A stretch of DNA of 64,000 bases from a virus. The DNA is taken from positions 39,596-103,595 of the IMG/VR virus record IMGVR_UViG_3300017971_000013. One strand, 5' to 3'. This document shows positions 5,948 to 32,009 of this stretch, in pieces. A model generated the notes under the pieces. It was given only the letters and a program-made list of their open reading frames with translations. It was not told where the DNA came from and did not search any database. The translations under genes were made by a program, and so were the position numbers. The number at the start of each line of letters is the position of its first letter. Position 1 is the first letter of the stretch.

Positions 5948-6030
5948 AGTGAGTTGGGAGTGAGTATTAAGTGAGTTCTTAACGAGAGTGAGTAGCCGAG
6001 AGCCCTCCTGCAGTGAGTGAGTCAGTGAGT
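5948..6030 (+). repeat. AGTGAGT direct-repeat array
   Basis: AGTGAGT occurs at 5948, 5959, 5970, 5987, 6012, 6016 (overlapping) and 6024. The first three are exactly 11 bp apart, about one helical turn, so a bound protein would sit on the same face each time. Confidence 0.7.
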
Positions 6031-6042
6031 TTCTTCTGTGCG

Positions 6043-6362
6043 ATAAAGTGACACTCCACCAACCACCTCTTATCTCCAAACATTGCCACTTGGCAACCTC
6101 AAAAAGTCCACGTTCATACATTATAAAGTGATATCTTCAGACATCCTCTGTCAGGCAGCGACCATTTCCTACCTTAGCTGTCATTTTCCACTCAAAAAGT
6201 CTCGGCGTGAACGTTATAAAGTGCATGTGTACCTACTATAAAGTGTATACAGAGCACCAATAAAGTGATGTCTCGCAGCAGTTGGTAGTACAGAGCTATG
6301 CGAAATAAAGTGTTGCGGCGAAAGAGATAAAGTGTGGGCCAAAGTCTCATAGGAAATAAGTG
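6043..6362 (+). repeat. ATAAAGTG iteron-like array, candidate replication origin
   Basis: ATAAAGTG occurs at 6043, 6123, 6216, 6238, 6260, 6305 and 6327, with a variant (AATAAGTG) at 6355. Spacings of 22, 22, 45 and 22 bp among the last five fit two helical turns, with one unit missing. Two copies belong to a larger unit: CTCAAAAAGTC, 12 variable bases, then TTATAAAGTG (6098-6130 and 6191-6223). The arrangement resembles replication iterons. A set of phage-specific promoters or repressor sites is an alternative. Confidence 0.6.
6083..6096 (+). repeat. Palindrome family copy (TTGCCACTTGGCAA)
   Basis: Perfect 6-bp arms inside the iteron-like region, two bases before a CTCAAAAAGTC element. Confidence 0.8.
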
Positions 6363-6400
6363 ACGCAGCTGCCGGAGCGGACGGACGAGGTCAGTGGTGT

Positions 6401-6523
6401 CCATATTCGGCCATTGACCACATATGGCGATTGAGGTGTCCATATATGGTGATCACCGCATATGGTGAATCCGACCCTTCTATCCATATATGGCGATTCA
6501 CCCCAAAATTCGACCATATCTGG
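6401..6523 (+). repeat. CCATATATGG palindrome cluster
   Basis: Six related sites: CCATATTCGG (6401), ACATATGG (6420), CCATATATGG (6440), GCATATGG (6458), CCATATATGG (6484) and CCATATCTGG (6514). Most are followed by CGA or TGA and then an ACC. Centres are 17-30 bp apart. Two more copies occur at 8102 and 8158. These are probably binding sites for a dimeric protein. Confidence 0.65.
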
Positions 6524-6998: not shown

Positions 6999-7235
6999 AT
7001 GGAATTGCTAGCTATCATCATGTTTTCGTTCCTTGGTCTGTTCGTTTCTTCTGTTGTAATTCAGAGCAACCTTGCCGTTGTCGTCGCGGCGACTAATCGT
7101 AAGAACTATCTCGATTTCTGCGAGAATGTAGATAGCGAGCTGAAAGCTATTCATAGACAAATGTACGTAGACGAGATTGTCGCTGAAAGCGACATTTACG
7201 CGGCTGTTGATTGTTTGGGTCTGAGACTACGCTAA
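6999..7235 (+). CDS. Small membrane protein, hypothetical
   Basis: 78 residues from ATG 6999 (GGAG at 6990-6993). Upstream in-frame ATG 6924 is rejected because the extra 25 codons cover the hairpin leader. Residues 4-32 are a single hydrophobic span (LLAIIMFSFLGLFVSSVVIQ and on), followed by a soluble charged tail, so it is probably an inner-membrane protein. Its stop codon lies within the tRNA-like minihelix at 7228-7272. Confidence 0.7.
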   Translation: MELLAIIMFSFLGLFVSSVVIQSNLAVVVAATNRKNYLDFCENVDSELKAIHRQMYVDEIVAESDIYAAVDCLGLRLR

Positions 7236-7272
7236 AACGGTTTTAGGGCGGTTCGATTCCGCCCTTAGCGTA
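7228..7272 (+). ncRNA. tRNA-like minihelix (acceptor plus T-arm only)
   Basis: TACGCTAA (7228-7235) pairs perfectly with TTAGCGTA (7265-7272). Inside, GGGCGG-TTCGATT-CCGCCC (7246-7264) is a T-arm with the conserved TTCGA loop. Only ten bases separate the 5' acceptor strand from the T stem, so there are no D or anticodon arms. This is the minimal shape recognised by RNase P and tRNase Z. No CCA is encoded. Confidence 0.5.
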
Positions 7273-7341: not shown

Positions 7342-7674
7342 ATGCCCACTAAGAACACTAAAAACACAAAAACGATGATTGACCGACTTCGTGCATTGGC
7401 CGTAAACGGCGACCTGTTCATCCCCTTGGATAGCAAGGGTGAGAAGGTGCTTGAAGCTATCACCTTGAATCAGCTGTTGCAGGCTAGCGCAGGAATCGAA
7501 CCGTGTCACGTTGAAGCGGTCTGGCGCTTAGAAGGTAAGGGTGGTTCGTGGTTGTATGAGCGTCGTTTCAAGGGCGGACCACAGATGAAGCGTATCAAAC
7601 TGCGGACACCTATCGAAGGTGTCGTTGTTTCCTTCCCTTCTGGCGATGATACAGAAGACACCGATCTCTGGTAG
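7342..7674 (+). CDS. Hypothetical protein, 110 aa
   Basis: 110 residues with AGGAG at 7329-7333. The N-terminus is polar (TKNTKNTK), the middle has mixed helix and strand segments, and the C-terminus is acidic (DDTEDTD). No family is recognised. It lies between hairpin-rich spacers, which suggests that the transcript is processed into single-gene units. Confidence 0.7.
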   Translation: MPTKNTKNTKTMIDRLRALAVNGDLFIPLDSKGEKVLEAITLNQLLQASAGIEPCHVEAVWRLEGKGGSWLYERRFKGGPQMKRIKLRTPIEGVVVSFPSGDDTEDTDLW

Positions 7675-17973: not shown

Positions 17974-17987
17974 TTGCCATTGTGCAA
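17974..17987 (+). repeat. Palindrome family copy (TTGCCATTGTGCAA)
   Basis: Followed by CTTT and TAGGAG, then ATG 18002. It sits in the leader, with the ribosome binding site directly downstream. Confidence 0.75.
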
Positions 17988-18001
17988 CTTTAGGAGTTTT
18001 C

Positions 18002-18250
18002 ATGTCTAACTCTAGAGAAGAAGAAAAACTGCCGCCTGAATGTGCGGATGGTGTCCTAGATATCAAAGCGTATGATGCAGCTATCAATAACCCAGACAGG
18101 AAAGCTTATTGGAATCCAGAAGGCAAAAAAAGATGTACATGGTGTTTAAACGTTGTAGAGCAGCTGGCAGATGAGAGGTACTGCGAAACGTGCAGGCGTA
18201 TGTACATTTTTAAACTCAAATCAGAATTCAAGGATACTTCAGAAGCATGA
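18002..18250 (+). CDS. Zinc-ribbon protein, 82 aa
   Basis: 82 residues with TAGGAG upstream. An acidic N-terminal half is followed by CTWCLNV and CETCRRM, a zinc ribbon. The C-terminus overlaps the next gene (ATGA). The fold suggests a nucleic-acid or protein contact role; no family is recognised. Confidence 0.7.
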   Translation: MSNSREEEKLPPECADGVLDIKAYDAAINNPDRKAYWNPEGKKRCTWCLNVVEQLADERYCETCRRMYIFKLKSEFKDTSEA

Positions 18251-23646: not shown

Positions 23647-25505
23647 TGCCTTTCTCTGACGAGGAAATTCGCGTAAAATCTGATAAACTTTCTTTGCAGA
23701 TTTCAGGAGGCGCGGATCAGGCTCCAGGAAAAAAGTTCTGGTATAATGAGGAGCATCCTTGGTCTCCTATTGTTGTACCTGATAACATTTGGTCTGATTT
23801 TGCTACAATACCTCCAGCTACAACGCCAGCTCAGGCAGATGCAAATGCTATAGCTAATCCCACTATTATTGAAAGGTTGGAAACCAGGTTAACTAACAAT
23901 CCAACTAGCAATAATAGGCAATATGAAGCTAGACAAACTTATGGTGATCGGACCAGTGATATTTATGTCAACTGGATCCAGCCTGCTCTCGTTAGAGATA
24001 GCGGTGCGCCCTCAAACGGATACATCATCCGACTGTATAATGGTGATCCCTCTGGAGGCGGTGTAGAGTTACCAACTACTTGGAATGGTGGTCCAGATGG
24101 TGCCCCCTCTTGGGAATGGAATTACTCTACTGGTGTTTTAAAGGTTTCTACTGATCAATCTGCAAACTATGGTGCTATAGATGCTGGCGCCGGTTTATGG
24201 GTTCAGGGTTTCAGATATATCGGGCCTACAGGAGGAGGTGCTTCCACTGTTGCAAGCACACCTAAAAGACTTGGCGCAATTGATATAGATGGCGCAGTTA
24301 ACCTAGTAAATACAGATTATGTTTTGTACACTGTTCCAGCAGGGTCTTATGCATTATCTGCCTTTGTTGTTGTGTGTAACAGAAACGCGGCGTTGGCAAC
24401 AACTGTAAGAATTGCACATTCTGTGGCTGGGCCACTAAACAATGAAGATTACATATTTTATGATGTAGATGTGCTAGCTTACGAATCTAAATTCATTTCT
24501 ATACCAGGCATGTCTGCTGGTGATTATATTACAGTAAGAGCAGATACTTCTGATACGGATTTTATGATTCGTGGTTTTGAAGATGTTGGAACTGCGCCTG
24601 TTCAACGCATAGCAGCGCTTGCCACAGATATAGGAACCAGAAATACAGATCTCCAAGCCTACTTAAGTACACAGGATTCTAGTGATGTTAAATACTACAT
24701 TTGTAATCATAATGGTGCTTTAGCTACGCGCGTGCGCGTGGCGCATATAGATGATGTTGTTGTTGGTAGTTTACTACCAGAGGACTACGAACTATATGAG
24801 GAAGAATTAGTAGCCACTGAATCTAGAGGATATTGTACTGGTCTTCAAATGTCTGCTAATCAGACTTTGATGTTTCGCGCAGATGAAGCAGATGTGAACA
24901 TTGTTGTTTATTGTTCATTTGGAGGAACGGGTGGAGGCGGTGGAGGAGGTGTTTCTTTATGGCAAGAAATAGGTACCGACTTAAGTCCTCTAACTCCAGG
25001 TAACAATGTGACTGTTCCTGGCGCAAGGCTGACTCTAGGTGATGATGTAGATCCTCAATTCTTTGAATCCATCACACAAGCTTCAGGCCAAGCTACCCAG
25101 GTTGGTGACAGCCAATATGAACGTGTTGTCTGTTATGGTGAGACTTTTGATGCGGCCTGGACAGTTCTCTATCCAGGCGGCAATGCCGCTAACAATTTGA
25201 CTTTAGTTGCAGGTTCATCTTATACTTGCAGGGTTCTTGTAACTGGAGTTCAGTACGGCGGCATTTTAGGGTCTCAGTATGATACTTGGGCATATGAATT
25301 GATAGGAAACATTGTGCTGGCCGGAGGTGTCACTACAATGCATTCTTATATCTCAAATACAATATTTGAAGCAGATAATACCTTTGATGTGCAATTAGTT
25401 GCAGATGACATCAATGATGCAATTCAGGTCCAGGTTAGAGGCGGTGTTAGTAAGTCCGTGCGATGGACCGCCGTTGTTGAACTTATAAATAGTTATGGTG
25501 GCTAG
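23646..25505 (+). CDS. Tail fibre protein with duplicated domain, 619 aa
   Basis: 619 residues. An N-terminal part with EEHPWSPIVVPDN and a Tyr/Trp-rich section is followed by an internal duplication: a segment with RIAHSVAGPLNNEDYIFYDV and later a related segment with RVAHIDDVVVGSLLPEDYEL, each about 70 residues and beta-rich. A Gly-rich linker (GGTGGGGGGGV) precedes the C-terminal domain. No enzyme motif is seen. Probable host-binding protein. Confidence 0.7.
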   Translation: MPFSDEEIRVKSDKLSLQISGGADQAPGKKFWYNEEHPWSPIVVPDNIWSDFATIPPATTPAQADANAIANPTIIERLETRLTNNPTSNNRQYEARQTYGDRTSDIYVNWIQPALVRDSGAPSNGYIIRLYNGDPSGGGVELPTTWNGGPDGAPSWEWNYSTGVLKVSTDQSANYGAIDAGAGLWVQGFRYIGPTGGGASTVASTPKRLGAIDIDGAVNLVNTDYVLYTVPAGSYALSAFVVVCNRNAALATTVRIAHSVAGPLNNEDYIFYDVDVLAYESKFISIPGMSAGDYITVRADTSDTDFMIRGFEDVGTAPVQRIAALATDIGTRNTDLQAYLSTQDSSDVKYYICNHNGALATRVRVAHIDDVVVGSLLPEDYELYEEELVATESRGYCTGLQMSANQTLMFRADEADVNIVVYCSFGGTGGGGGGGVSLWQEIGTDLSPLTPGNNVTVPGARLTLGDDVDPQFFESITQASGQATQVGDSQYERVVCYGETFDAAWTVLYPGGNAANNLTLVAGSSYTCRVLVTGVQYGGILGSQYDTWAYELIGNIVLAGGVTTMHSYISNTIFEADNTFDVQLVADDINDAIQVQVRGGVSKSVRWTAVVELINSYGG

Positions 25506-25506
25506 T

Positions 25507-26745
25507 ATGCAAAACAATGTCCAAGGAAAGGTCGTTGGCTTGGGCGGTAATTTGCCGAGCCACGTAAGACTGGAACCTTCTTTTCATGATCATTGTAACT
25601 GCAGGGGTTGGACTCCTGCAGCCCTTGGGTCTGGAAATAGTTTCCTTAATAGGTTTTGGAATAGGGCAAACACTGATTGGAACAATCATTGGAAATATAA
25701 ATGGTGGGAATTCTTTCCTCAAGGAGGTACTGTAGATCCATTTGGTCCAAGAAGGTTTGATACCACTGTTGAACTTGCTAATTACCTAGCTGATAACCTA
25801 CCGATGCTTGCTGGCAATTATGATGATGGTGTGAATGTGCGGTGTTATGATGCCGTAGATTATGCTGATTCATTTCCGCGCATAAGAATTGTTCGCAATT
25901 CTATTATAGGCTCGGTTAGAGGCAGGCGTAGATGGTTAGTAGGCTTTAGCTCCGAAACTTGTGGTATTTCTTCGGGCTTTAATGCCCCTAACTATTATGC
26001 AGGTGGCTTTCCTGGTAACACGGGTCGTTTGTTTGTTCAGAAATATACAGGCTTTTTACCAGGGACAAATAACGATGACGTTGTGTGGGCTACGAGGAAG
26101 AAACGCACTATGTGGTCGTTCCCTAAGGTAGGTAATCTGATTCAAGACTTACCCCCTGGAGCAAGAAGGGCTGCGTGGAATACAAACACTTTAAATTGGG
26201 TGACTCCAGCTCCTCAGCTTAGTTACGCATTTCAAAATCCTTTTCTGTGGTATGAAAACTACTGGGGCGGGGTTTTGGCTGTTGGTTATCCTAGTGACTT
26301 AGGTCAATCTTACAGAGAGGCTGTTCTTAATGGACCAGCAGCACTTGTGTTTCCTGTAGTCTCTGGGGATCATGTCGCTTTTGCTGTTTATCCAATGGGT
26401 TTTGATACTTTTTACACGGATAGACTAGGTACAGACGAAGAGCTTATCACAAAAGCAACCTTTAAAAGACAATCAACTCCAAGATACAAAGTTCTAACAT
26501 CTTCAAGCGTCGATCGTGATGTTGAAATGTTCCACACCGGAGACGGTGGAGGAAATCATTTTATGCAGTCAACGGATTGGCCAAACTCAAGCAATGATGG
26601 TATACGTGTACCTCATAAGGTGTATGTAGCTAAACGTAACACTGTGACAGGTGTGCGTTCAAAATGGGTTAAATTAGGAATCTTTCATCATCGTGTTCCT
26701 CATTCATCCCATAGGTTTGATCCAGCCTATAAATGGACAGGATAA
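25507..26745 (+). CDS. Receptor-binding protein, paralogue of the 27275 gene
   Basis: 412 residues from ATG 25507; ATG 25495, overlapping the previous stop, is an alternative. It shares blocks with the C-terminal half of the protein at 27275, including RGRRRWL versus KGRRRYL and PGTNNDDVVWATRKK versus PGSNEENIVWFSRNI, followed by similar spacing. It is rich in Trp, Tyr, Asn and Arg. The shared domain is probably a host-binding unit. Family unknown. Confidence 0.65.
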   Translation: MQNNVQGKVVGLGGNLPSHVRLEPSFHDHCNCRGWTPAALGSGNSFLNRFWNRANTDWNNHWKYKWWEFFPQGGTVDPFGPRRFDTTVELANYLADNLPMLAGNYDDGVNVRCYDAVDYADSFPRIRIVRNSIIGSVRGRRRWLVGFSSETCGISSGFNAPNYYAGGFPGNTGRLFVQKYTGFLPGTNNDDVVWATRKKRTMWSFPKVGNLIQDLPPGARRAAWNTNTLNWVTPAPQLSYAFQNPFLWYENYWGGVLAVGYPSDLGQSYREAVLNGPAALVFPVVSGDHVAFAVYPMGFDTFYTDRLGTDEELITKATFKRQSTPRYKVLTSSSVDRDVEMFHTGDGGGNHFMQSTDWPNSSNDGIRVPHKVYVAKRNTVTGVRSKWVKLGIFHHRVPHSSHRFDPAYKWTG

Positions 26746-26755
26746 GATTCAGATG

Positions 26756-26769
26756 TTGCCAACTGGCAA
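26756..26769 (-). repeat. Palindrome family copy (TTGCCAACTGGCAA)
   Basis: Perfect 6-bp arms. The flanks (TG before, TGTT after) fit the family best on the minus strand. Confidence 0.7.
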
Positions 26770-26788
26770 TGTTTGATTCCCCGTGAGA

Positions 26789-26875
26789 GGGGCTGCTATG
26801 TAGTAATGCAGCCCCAACGGGGTCACTTTGTAGTAATGTGGCCCCAAAGGGGCTGCCTTGTAGTAGTGCAGCCCC
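26789..26875 (+). repeat. Three tandem hairpins, 30-nt period, covarying stems
   Basis: Hairpins start at 26789, 26819 and 26849. Stems are GGGGCTGC/GCAGCCCC, GGGGTCAC/GTGGCCCC and GGGGCTGC/GCAGCCCC. The loops TATGTAGTAAT, TTTGTAGTAAT and CTTGTAGTAGT are nearly constant. Two pairs change together in the second copy (T-A to C-G, G-C to A-T), so the stem is under selection. There is no T tract. Confidence 0.8.
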
Positions 26876-26877
26876 AA

Positions 26878-26927
26878 TGAGATGCCTCTAAAGGAGAGCC
26901 AGCCAGGTTCGATTCCTGGGCATCTCA
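26878..26927 (+). ncRNA. tRNA-like minihelix, second copy
   Basis: TGAGATGC (26878-26885) pairs with GCATCTCA (26920-26927). A small hairpin CTCT-AAAGG-AGAG (26886-26898) and a T-arm CCAGG-TTCGATT-CCTGG (26903-26919) lie inside. There are no separate D and anticodon arms, and no CCA is encoded. It follows directly on the tandem hairpins and may be an RNase P or tRNase Z processing signal. Confidence 0.55.
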
Positions 26928-26954
26928 CTTTTGTGTTTCACTAAGAGGAATGTA

Positions 26955-27278
26955 ATGAAAGAATTACAGGTTAGAGGCACTACTGGTCAAAGACACTCTG
27001 GTGGGCAGCAAAACACTACGTCTGTATCCACCTTGACTGTGGCAGATTATGATTTAACTGATATGCGTTACGGGGGAGAATTCCTCCTTACGCCAGACGG
27101 TTCTTCTACTTTGTTAGAGTTGCTTCAGGCCGAAGCTCCTTGGGATTTGATGGAGACTTATACACTGGAGGAGCCTCCAGAAGATAATCAGTTAAGTTTA
27201 GCTGTGGTACCTTCGGCCGGTGCCACTGTTCGTGTTTTGTTGACTGCACGAATTGATTGTCAGGATCCTGTAACATGA
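26955..27278 (+). CDS. Small structural protein, paralogue of the 37992 gene
   Basis: Start ATG 26955 after AAGAGGAA. 107 residues. The segment GGEFLLTPDGSSTLLELLQ is similar to GGDVVLDADGTKNILELIQ in the protein at 37992, and both end in a Val/Thr strand region followed by a late Cys. It overlaps the next gene by ATGA. Both copies flank fibre genes, so an adaptor or chaperone role is possible. Confidence 0.65.
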   Translation: MKELQVRGTTGQRHSGGQQNTTSVSTLTVADYDLTDMRYGGEFLLTPDGSSTLLELLQAEAPWDLMETYTLEEPPEDNQLSLAVVPSAGATVRVLLTARIDCQDPVT

Positions 27279-28987
27279 TTGAAAGCACAAAACCTAATAT
27301 AGATTTTGCGGCAAGAGACACAGCTTTTTTGACTATGTCAGCGCCGCAGAATGCTAATCTAGCTGTCGGAGATCATGTTGAATTTAACTTAGTTGAAGGA
27401 AACATCCCGTTATCTGTAGGAGCCGGACAGGCTAACGGTGTTTTGACTTTAACTAACAGCAAAAAATATAAACTAGAGGCCAATGTCTCTTGTGCGTTCG
27501 GCGCAACAAATGATTCGTGCTCATTTGTCTGGTATGACACAACAAACAACACTGAGATAGGGAAAAGGTCTGATTGTTTCTCTGTTTCTGGTTCAGCTAC
27601 AGAGAGTTCTGTCAGCACCGTGCGCGCGGTGGTAACGCCAGGGGCAGACATAAACGTAGAGCTTAGAATTATCGCTGTCAGCGGTACTGTTACACTCATT
27701 TCTAACTCCTTTGCAAATGGGTGGGTAGAGAGCTTAGAGGCGTATATAAATGTAGTGCCAACTTTTGATGTTCATGTTCCCACTATAGAATATGACACGT
27801 TCACTGTTGGCATACACGACTCTACAAACTGGTCTGGTTCTGCTTTTGATTCTTTGGCGGATCGTCAAGCGGCAGATATAAACAGAAATTTCTCTAACTA
27901 CACACAATGTTTTTGGCGCTTGTATGAAAGAGAGGTAGGCACTAACCTTTTGGTTAATTACTGGGAAGGTTTGCAATTTGCCTCTATTGCCGCTCTTTAC
28001 ACCTTCATAAGAAATAACTGTGTAGAAAGTGGGACGGCTCCAGGGACACCAGCCAATGATATCATCGCTACTGCTTATGATATCATTGATGACACGGTAC
28101 AGCGCGTTAACCGTATTTATGGCCTGAATACTTTTCTTGCTATATTGAAAGGTCGGCGCAGGTATTTGTCATCCAACTTTGATGAATGTGTTTTAGACGA
28201 AAATCTGTGTTCGTGGGGACAGCTTGGTAACTGGATTGATGATCTGAATGCCAACGCGCCTGGGTGGCTTAATCCACTTTCGTCTTGGGCTCCAGGTTCT
28301 AATGAAGAGAATATTGTTTGGTTTTCAAGGAACATAAAGAAACTTTATGGGCTTCCAAACATCTCTACTGTGTTTATGAATCTGACTGCTCTAACAAATA
28401 GACGTGTTTGGGATTGGGGTGCGTCTGCTGTGGTCGCAGCCCCTCTTGGTGGTTATCAGGGCACAGGGCCGAGCGGAGAGCCTAAGATTTATTGTTCGTT
28501 GGATATGCCTACTCAAACGTGGACGTTTTTTGACACTACGTTGAGAGATCATTACGTACAGCAGTTTAACGGAGATAAATCTATTATAGTGCTTTATCAA
28601 CTGTCCAGTACTGCCGATCCGAACAAAAGAGCTGTCTTAGCAAAGCCTCTTGGTATAGATAGGGTTTCGATTCCTTGGTTTGATTCTTCTGTGTATGACT
28701 TATACGCTCTGTATAATCGTAAGAATCAGACACACAATATTCGCGGTCCTTTGACTAGTACCTTCGAAGATGTTATAGCTAATAAGAAGTGGGTGTTGAA
28801 AGATCAGTGGATGCATCCTTCTAAGTTCGATACTAAAGCTTCTGCAAGAATGGTTGGTACTCAAGAGTACACAACTAGATTCTTTTTGCGGCATAAATCT
28901 ACAGGGCGTATCTCAAAGCCTAGCAGCGCCAGAATAGTATGTGCCCAGAGGCACAGAGACGCTATGTTTAAATTTGAGGTACGTTAA
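27275..28987 (+). CDS. Tail fibre with jelly-roll-like N-terminus, 570 aa
   Basis: 570 residues from ATG 27275 (ATGA). Residues about 20-160 look like a TNF/C1q-type jelly roll common in phage fibres (VGDHVEFNLVEGN, GVLTLTNSKKYKLEANVSC, a late WVESLEAYINVV). The C-terminal 300 residues are homologous to the protein at 25507. The pair looks like a duplicated receptor-binding domain with different N-termini. Confidence 0.7.
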   Translation: MIESTKPNIDFAARDTAFLTMSAPQNANLAVGDHVEFNLVEGNIPLSVGAGQANGVLTLTNSKKYKLEANVSCAFGATNDSCSFVWYDTTNNTEIGKRSDCFSVSGSATESSVSTVRAVVTPGADINVELRIIAVSGTVTLISNSFANGWVESLEAYINVVPTFDVHVPTIEYDTFTVGIHDSTNWSGSAFDSLADRQAADINRNFSNYTQCFWRLYEREVGTNLLVNYWEGLQFASIAALYTFIRNNCVESGTAPGTPANDIIATAYDIIDDTVQRVNRIYGLNTFLAILKGRRRYLSSNFDECVLDENLCSWGQLGNWIDDLNANAPGWLNPLSSWAPGSNEENIVWFSRNIKKLYGLPNISTVFMNLTALTNRRVWDWGASAVVAAPLGGYQGTGPSGEPKIYCSLDMPTQTWTFFDTTLRDHYVQQFNGDKSIIVLYQLSSTADPNKRAVLAKPLGIDRVSIPWFDSSVYDLYALYNRKNQTHNIRGPLTSTFEDVIANKKWVLKDQWMHPSKFDTKASARMVGTQEYTTRFFLRHKSTGRISKPSSARIVCAQRHRDAMFKFEVR

Positions 28988-28997
28988 CAGTGTTTTG

Positions 28998-29084
28998 GCG
29001 GTTCGCTCGATTAAAGACGAACTGCGTTAGGTTCGCTCGATTAAAGACGAACCGTATTTGGCCCGCTCGATTAAAGACGGGCCA
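28998..29084 (+). repeat. Three tandem hairpins, 30-nt period, conserved loop
   Basis: Stems GTTCG/CGAAC (29001-29022), GTTCG/CGAAC (29031-29052) and GCCCG/CGGGC (29061-29082) are each extended outward by 1-3 pairs. All three loops are CTCGATTAAAGA. In the third copy two T-A pairs become C-G on both sides, direct compensatory change. Confidence 0.85.
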
Positions 29085-29092
29085 CATATTCC

Positions 29093-29141
29093 AATAATTC
29101 CCCTCTTGTGTAACTTTCTCCTACATGAGAGGGGAATTATT
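29093..29141 (+). terminator. Long 14-bp stem, possible terminator
   Basis: AATAATTCCCCTCT (29093-29106) pairs perfectly with AGAGGGGAATTATT (29128-29141). Only a short ATTT follows, so it may terminate weakly or protect RNA. From 28988 to 29219 there is no gene. Confidence 0.5.
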
Positions 29142-29219
29142 ATTTCCTGCCCTTCTATCTGCTTGCTATTCCTATCCCTTGTAGATTCTTCTAGCTTTAT
29201 AAAAAAATTGAGGGTTAAT

Positions 29220-32009
29220 ATGTCTAACAACACTGGAAGTATAACTTCAAGCGAGTTATTTGGTGCTCCTGCTTCTGGCTCTTCATCTTCCTCTATTTGG
29301 GATGCTGATGCGGATACAGGCGTTGATGTTGAGGCAACACCGGATAATGATACTATCTTTGGGTATACAAATGATGGCGCGGGAAATCCCTTAGCTCGGT
29401 TTTCCATCTCTCAGCCAGGCGAAGCATCCTTTGGACAGCTTGATGGTCGGGTGGGGACCGAGTTTTTTAATGTCTTGGGTGGGGATACTTTAGGCTTAAG
29501 CGCTGGTTTGCTGTTAGATGCTGTGGATGGTGCAGGCGGCGGATACGATGCTTTTTTAGCCATTGATAGTGATTTAGCTGGTGGTGGTAGCTCCGCAGCC
29601 GTGATCTTAAGAAACAATGGCGGAAACTCTGTGGCTTGGACAGCGCCATCTGTCGCTCCAGGTTCCGACTTGTTTTTTGCTCTACCAAATACGCAAGGCG
29701 CAAATGGCCAGGTATTAGCTAGTAATGGTGTTGACAGCACTTATTGGACTACTGTTGCCACTTCAGGTATTTGGGACACTGATGGTGATACAGGTATAGA
29801 TTGTGAACGTACTCCAGACGTAGACGAGATTTCTTTTTATACAGGAGATCCGTCTGTCGAACGAATGCGTTTGGGTGGTAACGGTTTACGTATTGAGCCT
29901 GGTTCTGTGTCTGGGACTGCTACAGAGATTTTAGAGATACAAGGTAGTTCAATTGGCGGAGATATTCGTGCCAAGGCAACAAATATTTTAGGTCTGCCAA
30001 CTCAACCAGGCACAGCTGGTTTAGATATGGATGTTTCTGGGCTGGTTGGTTCTATTTACATGTCTCGTAATGATGGCTTGTGGCTAGAATCTGATGGGAC
30101 AGCCTTAGGACGTCAGGCGCCTATTCATATGTCTGTAGATTCTACAGAGATTGTGACTGTTAATTTTGATTCCGGTTCTGTTCCTGGTTATTTGGGCTTG
30201 AGTCAATATGGTGCTGGTGCAGGTGAGAAGTCAGAGCTAAGGTTTTTTCTGGGAGATGTTAGCTCTAATTATGTTGGTTTTAAGGCGCCGGATGCAATAC
30301 CTACTTCTGAGATATGGACATTACCAGCGGCGGATGGAACACCTGGTCAGGTTTTATCTACCAATGGCGCAAATGTTTTATCTTGGGTTGGAGGCGCAGC
30401 AGATTCAGATTGGTCTGGAGCAGCTACGGGTATGTTATATCCGACCAACATTACAGATAATGTAGCTATAGGAAACGCGACGCCAACATATACAAATCGT
30501 GGTTTGTGGGTAGAAAATGCTGGAGCCTATGGAGGTTCAGCACAGTTAAGAGGAAGCGCAGCTAGGCTCGAACTTTTTTCTTCTGGTAATGCTGCTGGTG
30601 CCAGAGCCATGGATATTGTTGGCTATTCTGACGCTTATCATATACGGCTGTTAGATGATGGCTTTAGCACACAATCTGCTGGCATTTTGTTGTCGGCATC
30701 ATCTTTTATTTTAAATGACAACTATGCTGATGTAGATACTCAGATTTTTGGAAACTCTGGTTTGGTTCCTCGTGTGCATGCTGATGGCGCGACAAAGACA
30801 GTTGGTATAAATACTGCTACTCCTGGATCTCAGCTACATGTGACAGACGATACTGCTTGTGGTGTTTTGGTCTCTGCTTTTGGAAATGGAGCAGGAGATT
30901 ATCCTTTTTGGTTTATGTATCGTGGCAGGAATGTTGAGGCCGCGCCCAATTCTGTGCTGACAGGAGATATTCTTGGCAGCGCCGATTTTAGAGCTTTTGA
31001 CGGTACAGGAGCAGGAGACGCTGGTTATATTGCTATGTACGCCAATGAGGATTGGTCTACTGGTAATACTGGATCCAGGTTAGTTTTAGCTACTACAGAA
31101 GATGCCAATGCTACTTCTGTTGAGAGAGTTCAGATAGATGATGATGGTGTTGTTCAGGTTTTAACTAATTATATAGATGTGCATCCGAAAGGAACGGCAG
31201 CTGGTGATGGTGGGACGGTACGTTTTAGAGAATTAGCAGCAAGCGGCACTGATTATGTAGGGCTTAGTGGGCCAGATGCAGCAACAGCAACACAAGACTA
31301 TAAACTACCGCAGAACTATCCTTCTGTGGCAGGAGATGCTCTCACGTGTGATGGTTCAGGAAATATGGGGTGGGCAGCAAGAGACTTGCGATGGTCTGCA
31401 ACTGCTGCTGGAACCTGGGCATCTACTAGCACATTTACTGTCACTGATAACGCCACCAACCAATCAATCTTTGCAACTGGGCGTCCAATCAGATTTAGAC
31501 AAGCTGCAGGTACTTGGCGTTATGCAATTATTACTGACTACACAACAGGGACAATAACTGTTGCTGGTCATCCGATTACAAATGCTGCCGAAATGACAGA
31601 AATGGAATGGGGTAACTTTGATCGTGTTCAGACCCTTTCTTTTGCTATTAATGGCGAATTTGCGGATGGCGCAAGCACTTCTCTGATTGAAGATGATTTA
31701 TTTACTTTCTTTAAATGGACGATGGCTAAGGCTTATTGTGTACTCATTAGCCATCGTGTGACAGACGTGGATACAGGCGCATCGCAGCCGCGTGTTAACT
31801 TAAGAGTGAACGGTCAGCCTGTTTCAACTTCTAATACTAACGCAGGACGAGATGTTTCTACTTCGTGGGTAGATACTGTTGTAGACATCGCTGTAGCTAA
31901 TTATGATATTAACTGGGGAGAAGCTATAGAGATTTCTACTGATGCTAACGGTACAAATAATGATGCCAGAAGTCTGTCACTACAGGCCACCTTTGTATTT
32001 GAGGATTAA
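29220..32009 (+). CDS. Large tail fibre protein, 929 aa
   Basis: 929 residues from ATG 29220 (GAGGGT upstream); the frame is open from 29058 but that part covers the hairpins. Repeated units with SSIWDADADTGVDVE and SGIWDTDGDTGIDCE and later PGQVLSTNG are typical of long repetitive phage fibres. Composition is Gly, Ser, Thr, Asp and Ala rich. The C-terminus has a TNF-like beta region. Probable trimeric side fibre. Confidence 0.75.
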   Translation: MSNNTGSITSSELFGAPASGSSSSSIWDADADTGVDVEATPDNDTIFGYTNDGAGNPLARFSISQPGEASFGQLDGRVGTEFFNVLGGDTLGLSAGLLLDAVDGAGGGYDAFLAIDSDLAGGGSSAAVILRNNGGNSVAWTAPSVAPGSDLFFALPNTQGANGQVLASNGVDSTYWTTVATSGIWDTDGDTGIDCERTPDVDEISFYTGDPSVERMRLGGNGLRIEPGSVSGTATEILEIQGSSIGGDIRAKATNILGLPTQPGTAGLDMDVSGLVGSIYMSRNDGLWLESDGTALGRQAPIHMSVDSTEIVTVNFDSGSVPGYLGLSQYGAGAGEKSELRFFLGDVSSNYVGFKAPDAIPTSEIWTLPAADGTPGQVLSTNGANVLSWVGGAADSDWSGAATGMLYPTNITDNVAIGNATPTYTNRGLWVENAGAYGGSAQLRGSAARLELFSSGNAAGARAMDIVGYSDAYHIRLLDDGFSTQSAGILLSASSFILNDNYADVDTQIFGNSGLVPRVHADGATKTVGINTATPGSQLHVTDDTACGVLVSAFGNGAGDYPFWFMYRGRNVEAAPNSVLTGDILGSADFRAFDGTGAGDAGYIAMYANEDWSTGNTGSRLVLATTEDANATSVERVQIDDDGVVQVLTNYIDVHPKGTAAGDGGTVRFRELAASGTDYVGLSGPDAATATQDYKLPQNYPSVAGDALTCDGSGNMGWAARDLRWSATAAGTWASTSTFTVTDNATNQSIFATGRPIRFRQAAGTWRYAIITDYTTGTITVAGHPITNAAEMTEMEWGNFDRVQTLSFAINGEFADGASTSLIEDDLFTFFKWTMAKAYCVLISHRVTDVDTGASQPRVNLRVNGQPVSTSNTNAGRDVSTSWVDTVVDIAVANYDINWGEAIEISTDANGTNNDARSLSLQATFVFED

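Follow-up and report, generated by a model that had tools for sequence, protein, structure and literature searches.

Anticodon-less, tRNA-shaped sequences in phage gene gaps probably mark cutting or spacing points of long messenger RNAs

What does a sequence with the acceptor stem and T-arm of a tRNA, and no anticodon arm, do between two phage genes? The question is raised by a 50-nt element, E1, in a 64,000-nt stretch of virus DNA (the window), which comprises bases 39,596-103,595 of a 103,595-base virus record. Matches to sheath, portal and terminase proteins identify the source as a contractile-tailed phage. An earlier note on this DNA had described, at exactly 26878-26927, an 8-bp acceptor-like stem, a 5-bp T-arm with the loop TTCGATT and a 4-bp hairpin. 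Direct reading of the sequence, TGAGATGC-CTCT-AAAGG-AGAG-CCAG-CCAGG-TTCGATT-CCTGG-GCATCTCA, confirms this pairing potential, and an inverted-repeat search finds the outer 9 nt as a perfect inverted pair (26878-26886 / 26919-26927). In tRNA numbering, a 7-bp acceptor and the 5-bp T-arm form a 12-bp stack, with an extra U-A pair at -1/73. Instead of an anticodon arm there is a 17-nt insert, in which a possible 4-bp hairpin with GG in its loop may be D-arm-like. Coordinates are collected in Table 1.

Table 1. Positions of the tRNA-like elements and of neighbouring features, in window coordinates unless prefixed by L004, a locus of the same record.
Feature	Position	Strand	Evidence or remark
E2	7228-7272	+	TACGCTAA AACGGTTTTA GGGCGG TTCGATT CCGCCC TTAGCGTA; scanner, model R1
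Gene 69 nt 3' of E2	7342..7674	+	
Three tandem 30-nt hairpins	26788..26877	+	8-bp stems, loop core TGTAGTA; inverted repeats
E1, mini tRNA-like element	26878..26927	+	Sequence, inverted pair, scanner, sub-threshold tRNA-Sec match
E1 acceptor-like stem, 5' strand	26878..26885	+	Pairs with 26920-26927; pair probabilities 0.54-1.0
E1 insert, mini-hairpin CTCT-AAAGG-AGAG then CCAG	26886..26902	+	Sequence; pairing disfavoured by energy model
E1 T-arm, CCAGG-TTCGATT-CCTGG	26903..26919	+	Sequence; T-arm-only matches of models R1 and R2
E1 acceptor-like stem, 3' strand	26920..26927	+	Inverted pair
Next gene after E1	26955..27278	+	ORF 26931-27278; start position checked
E4	L004:14725-14775	+	Scanner
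E5	L004:15179-15229	+	Scanner
tRNA-Leu, intact	L004:16017-16100	+	

E1 is not a functional tRNA, as the earlier note had also held: the anticodon arm is missing, and neither ARAGORN nor Rfam at its gathering cut-offs, RF00005 included, gives a match in the window. Below threshold, the best Rfam match is tRNA-Sec, which covers exactly 26878-26927 with 17.3 bits where the cut-off is 47. The half of a tRNA that E1 does carry, a 7-bp acceptor beside a 5-bp T-arm with a TTCRANY loop, is found both by direct reading and by scanner, but its T-arm is contradicted by the energy model. When the 50-mer is folded alone under the nearest-neighbour model, the minimum-energy structure (-24.6 kcal/mol, compared with -19.5 kcal/mol when the T-arm is forced) keeps the acceptor but has another stem in place of the T-arm. 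This gap of 5.1 kcal/mol comes from a model that leaves out T-loop tertiary contacts, but the corresponding gap in 55 elements from outside this phage never exceeds 1.9 kcal/mol and is 0 in 48. E1 may therefore fold poorly, represent a decayed copy or act as a switch.

E1 directly abuts a head-to-tail trio of hairpins, which perhaps forms the 3'-end structure of the upstream message. It is followed directly by CTTTTG and, 27 nt on, by the ATG of the next gene, with AAGAGGA upstream. The window also contains a dispersed small palindrome, TTGCCANNTGGCAA, with 20 matches at up to two mismatches where 2.9 are expected; its sites in the record include window positions 6083, 6760, 26756, 33228 and 51101, and exact TTGCCNNNNGGCAA occurs 14 times in the whole record. 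Repeats abound at window positions 5960-6420, where ATAAAGTG motifs are numerous and long reading frames few.

Searches for relatives of the locus returned little. Positions 24000-30000 have no match by blastn against 50,697 phage records, and no homologue of the E1 locus was found in IMG/VR by way of the upstream protein, terminase alone or DNA polymerase. A ThyX query gave one related locus (L105), which is without a mini tRNA-like element. Alignment of the terminase kept 80 loci, the best of which (L008, 60% identical) is a 28-kb contig that ends short of the E1 region. These 80 loci (1,039,397 bases) contain no mini tRNA-like element at a score of 28 or more by scanner 1 with inserts of up to 34 nt. 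A control with scanner 2 on 101 partly overlapping loci (L005-L105; 1,480,340 bases) gave one match at 30 or more and four at 28 or more.

Within this phage, E1 is one of at least four such elements, which the earlier note had missed. Scanner 1, an acceptor plus T-arm search over the whole record, returns five places at a score of 30 or more, all on the + strand: E2, E1, E5, a real tRNA-Leu and E4. The background in 200 dinucleotide shuffles is 0.015 places per genome at this score. Scanner 2 returns four places at 24 or more, with 0.18 per shuffle at that score and none in 60 shuffles at 30 or more. Another sequence, E3 (L004:14081-14144), is tRNA-sized and D-armless, and has a 5-bp arm with the 7-nt loop TTCCCCA at the anticodon-arm position; its score of 25 is by itself not above chance (0.36 per shuffle at 24 or more). 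The energy folds of E2, E4 and E5 match the drawn architecture, give or take a junction pair. E4 and E5, both with the T-loop TGCAATT, are alike over 51 nt while their flanks differ; five of their six differences lie in stems and 18 of 18 pairs are kept in both, a pairing test that is weak alone, as 14.7% of random transition sets also keep all pairs. An E4/E5-specific pattern has no match in IMG/VR. The distance to the start ATG, which has a purine-rich stretch upstream as at E1, is 38 nt for E4 and E5 and 69 nt for E2, and the elements share the sense, intergenic placement shortly before a start that is described below for other phages. At both E2 and E5, the upstream reading frame has its stop codon within the 5' strand of the acceptor.

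Elements of this kind recur in other phages. E1 gives weak blastn matches in 150 phage records; eight blastn loci (L106-L113) were read, and short elements of the E2 build are present in Gordonia phage ObLaDi. The whole ObLaDi genome contains nine copies at 26 or more by scanner 2, all of them scoring 33-36 (shuffle background 0.45 at 26 or more and 0.017 at 32 or more). There are 16 copies in 24.6 kb of Gordonia phage VanLee, 7 in 25.5 kb of Morgana and 2 in 6.5 kb of Mycobacterium phage MyraDee. ObLaDi and Morgana are related to each other, so they are not independent; between ObLaDi and MyraDee, the sole match over the 1,672 ObLaDi bases compared is a 49-nt stretch, the element. None of the copies in these four phages is annotated. 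The annotation of VanLee with tRNAscan-SE and ARAGORN reports one tRNA and no such element (PMC8320454), and we found no report of such elements in phages in the open-licence literature. What is new here is an unannotated, recurrent phage RNA element that goes undetected by gene finders.

Beyond these phages, the pattern ACGGTN{7,11}GGTTCRANTCC hits at least 120 stretches in IMG/VR, and scanner 2 scores 28 or more in at least 20 of them; some resemble tRNA pieces or chance. A genome scan gave eight stretches, with a scanner match at 27 or more in four (L241, L242, L243 and L245) and none in the other four. Chromosomal copies are present in Streptomyces benahoarensis, S. lydicus and a Hymenobacter bin. 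Among 197 genomes of the class of the S. lydicus genome, three contain model matches at E ≤ 1e-5, five in total; chromosomes therefore seldom carry the element, and the model is not just detecting ordinary tRNAs. E1 itself matches, over 28-35 nt and at E 0.01-0.04, an unannotated sequence in L-type phages of Mycobacterium. Candidates at L095:6153-6241 and in Bacillus phage A9Y (L110) were inspected and judged to be chance or unsupported.

Larger tRNA-like sequences were also encountered. Streptomyces phage LuckySocke (L006) has at 17976-18054 an unannotated 79-nt tRNA-like stretch whose acceptor and T-arm are intact. The acceptor is followed by a tmRNA-like GGTTTCGAC, but neither a tag frame nor an anticodon arm was seen, and the Rfam matches of the stretch are sub-threshold only. 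Blastn with E1 touched 104 Microbacterium records, and the two that were read (L108 and L109, Ilzatvirus phages) carry at 948-1024, 47 nt 5' of the DNA polymerase I gene, a tRNA-like element of 77 nt that lacks a normal anticodon loop.

The position of the elements is strikingly constant. All 34 scanner copies in ObLaDi, VanLee, Morgana and MyraDee lie on the strand of the neighbouring genes; 32 are wholly intergenic and two overlap a coding sequence by 1 nt. Most begin within 15 nt of the upstream stop (26/34) and end 29-53 nt before the next annotated start (32/34, with the remaining two at 12 and 131 nt). Co-directional gaps of 70-140 nt are occupied in 31 of 41 cases (VanLee 14/14, ObLaDi 9/12, Morgana 6/12, MyraDee 2/3), compared with 0 of 94 gaps below 40 nt, 0 of 8 gaps of 40-69 nt and 2 of 11 gaps above 140 nt. 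Many copies at L115, L237 and L238 are followed, a few nt on, by a perfect tetraloop hairpin and then by a GGCACCCAAC-like sequence, so that a cut after the element would leave the hairpin near the new 5' end. A start codon preceded by purine-rich sequence could be made out in two of the seven chromosomal loci that were read, L254 and L256, where it lies 47 and 38 nt past the element, respectively.

The anatomy of the class was counted in 59 outside copies, chosen by a scanner that demands pairing. The stack of acceptor and T-arm is 12 bp in 35 of them, 11 bp in 12, 13 bp in 9 and of other lengths in 3. The first pair is G-C in 45/59, the next three bases are ACG in 36/59, and the T-loop has the 7-nt form TTCRANY. 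A CCA end is encoded in none (0/59). The insert, often AYGGT, contains GG in 58 of the 59 copies. In tRNAs, the GG of the D-loop contacts the T-loop at the elbow through G-G contacts; the GG of the insert may stand in for it, and longer inserts can probably form a mini D-arm.

The stems of the class differ and still pair, whereas the earlier note had named a lack of conserved pairing in homologous loci as the outcome that would speak against its reading. In an alignment of 13 sequences, in which pairing is 100% by construction and two-sided changes are the informative part, such changes occur at 9 of the 12 pairs. Between elements with similar flanks, 151 pairs have changed and 142 of these retain pairing, 129 through a two-sided change, in comparisons that overlap and with an alignment that is model-fitted. 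A covariance search, which the earlier note had proposed, recovers E2 but not the whole of E1. Model R1 was trained on 13 sequences from other phages and genomes; its best match in this phage is E2, full-length at E 4e-5, and it matches E1 in the T-arm only (E 0.15). Model R2, built from 55 sequences, gives E 0.001 for E2 and again a T-arm-only match for E1 (E 0.6), the insert of which is 17 nt long. E4 and E5 are detected by neither model. E2 is therefore a class member by model, and the clearest one in the window; E1, E4 and E5 are members by architecture and position only, and E1 is the least certain.

Our hypothesis is that polycistronic phage RNA is cut at these elements by RNase P and/or RNase Z of the host, a reading to which we give a probability of roughly 0.55. 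The elements lie on the sense strand of phage operons, shortly past one stop codon and some 30-50 nt ahead of the next start. The transcript would fold into the elbow-plus-acceptor half of a tRNA, with a short GG insert replacing the anticodon and D arms. RNase P would then cut at the 5' side of the element and/or RNase Z at its 3' side, dividing the polycistronic message into units with defined ends. The features that these two enzymes read recur throughout the class in a punctuation-like position, which favours host cleavage. RNase P requires the T-loop while the D-loop appears dispensable, and RNase Z acts on precursors without CCA (PMC4919913). The known targets of RNase P in bacteria include mRNAs and regulatory RNAs induced by phages, C4 RNA among them (PMC4919922), and also the T4 gene 32 mRNA (PMC11143913). 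The suggestion of the earlier note that E1 matches the minimal substrate of RNase P and RNase Z is the best supported one for the class, by virtue of the many copies, the varied and still paired stems, the frequent 12-bp stack, the missing CCA and the placement between stop and start; for E1 itself, it is weakened by the energy fold that excludes the T-arm. The observation was right, and its interpretation is plausible and strengthened for the class.

Several points count against cleavage at the elements. The predicted fold of E1 excludes the T-arm, models R1 and R2 match its T-arm alone, and the terminase relatives (1.04 Mb) are without an element at 28 or more. Because the acceptor covers the upstream stop codon in E2 and E5, a 5' cut would leave a message without a stop; this loss would be avoided if cutting took place on the 3' side only, or only in copies that are not being translated. 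Transcription, folding in the cell, cleavage, and E1 behaving like the other copies are all presumed in this hypothesis. The broader statement, that unrelated phage lineages punctuate their messages with anticodon-less mini-tRNAs cut by host RNase P and/or RNase Z, with at least four here and E1 one of them, is tentative and falls a little short of even odds.

The same elements could instead stay uncut and act as small folded spacers, shielding the ends of messages, stopping exonucleases or insulating neighbouring genes. This is unlikely, though it fits the intergenic placement and the tetraloop hairpin soon after many outside copies, which makes the gap a run of structures, much as E1 follows its array of three hairpins. 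Plain hairpins would suffice for such a role, which leaves the 7-nt TTCRANY loop, the 12-bp stack and the GG insert unexplained. We consider it rather improbable that the elements are recombination boundary modules, short shared RNA or DNA units at gene borders by which small phage genes are exchanged. Some elements do differ from each other although the 250 nt downstream of them show 91-94% identity, as though whole units had been exchanged (L115:28780 versus L238:17826, and L115:26765 versus L238:16323), and both the 49-nt stretch shared by ObLaDi and MyraDee and the likeness of E4 and E5 despite different flanks fit exchange; yet the stem sequences change freely without loss of pairing, which suggests that RNA structure, not DNA identity, is what counts, and exchange is possibly a by-product.

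A trans-acting decoy or substrate of host tRNA enzymes (the CCA-adding enzyme, RNase P or modification enzymes), working as a sponge or charged mimic, would agree with the many copies per operon region and the intact T-arm and acceptor. It seems improbable, as a role in trans needs no fixed place before start codons. Decayed tRNA genes, or the tRNA-derived attachment site that the earlier note had offered as an alternative, are a long shot: the record does hold an intact tRNA-Leu and the D-armless E3, and E1 has its short match to Mycobacterium L-type phages, but dozens of copies retain intact pairing and constant placement. For an attachment site, moreover, the integrase search, confined to tyrosine integrases (PF00589) and positive in 14/14 control genomes, found none in the record, and several copies exist. 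E1 also possesses a matching 5' acceptor strand, which bears out the argument of the note that self-pairing speaks against a simple 3' tRNA fragment. An intrinsic terminator or attenuator, suggested by the CTTTTG after E1, is very improbable: positions 26600-27100 yield no terminator-like call, just 2 of the 59 outside copies have TTTT within 12 nt, and a start codon lies 30-50 nt further on.

Cleavage by host tRNA-processing enzymes has counterparts in known systems. The tRNA-like domain of tmRNA likewise consists of an acceptor and a T-arm without an anticodon arm; the mini-tRNA elements differ in being without a tag reading frame or long helix, and ARAGORN finds no tmRNA in the window, L003 or L004. 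In mitochondria, polycistronic transcripts are punctuated by tRNAs, and there, as with plant t-elements, tRNA-shaped RNA between genes sets message ends through cuts by RNase P (and RNase Z); the phage arrangement would be a bacterial-virus version of this punctuation. In contrast to the mitochondrial case, the bacteriophage elements are mostly 40-50 nt long, have no anticodon arm and reach as many as 16 copies in 24.6 kb, and their cleavage is presumed. A t-element in an Arabidopsis mitochondrial transcript is an RNase P substrate (PMC4919922). Host RNase P is also known to cut the C4 antisense RNA of P1/P7, phage M3 RNA and the T4 gene 32 mRNA (PMC4919922 and PMC11143913); in arrangement, these are single RNAs, whereas the mini-tRNAs form a repeated intergenic module. 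The small tRNA-like mascRNA/menRNA (RF01684), which RNase P releases (PMC4919922), are human, and no Rfam match at gathering cut-offs is present in the window, L115, L236, L237 or L238. A link to Y RNA was dropped, the Ro protein (PF05731) being absent from this phage.

Anticodon-less, tRNA-shaped sequences in gene gaps probably act on long messenger RNAs as marks for cutting or spacing. If cleavage at these elements is borne out, phages would borrow the most conserved RNA-processing enzymes of the cell, by means of a 40-50-nt signal, to cut their long messages, and many uncharacterised small phage genes would acquire a defined message start. It would also explain the intergenic gaps of 70-140 nt and supply natural minimal substrates of RNase P, and it would mean that a whole class of elements has been missed by tRNA finders.
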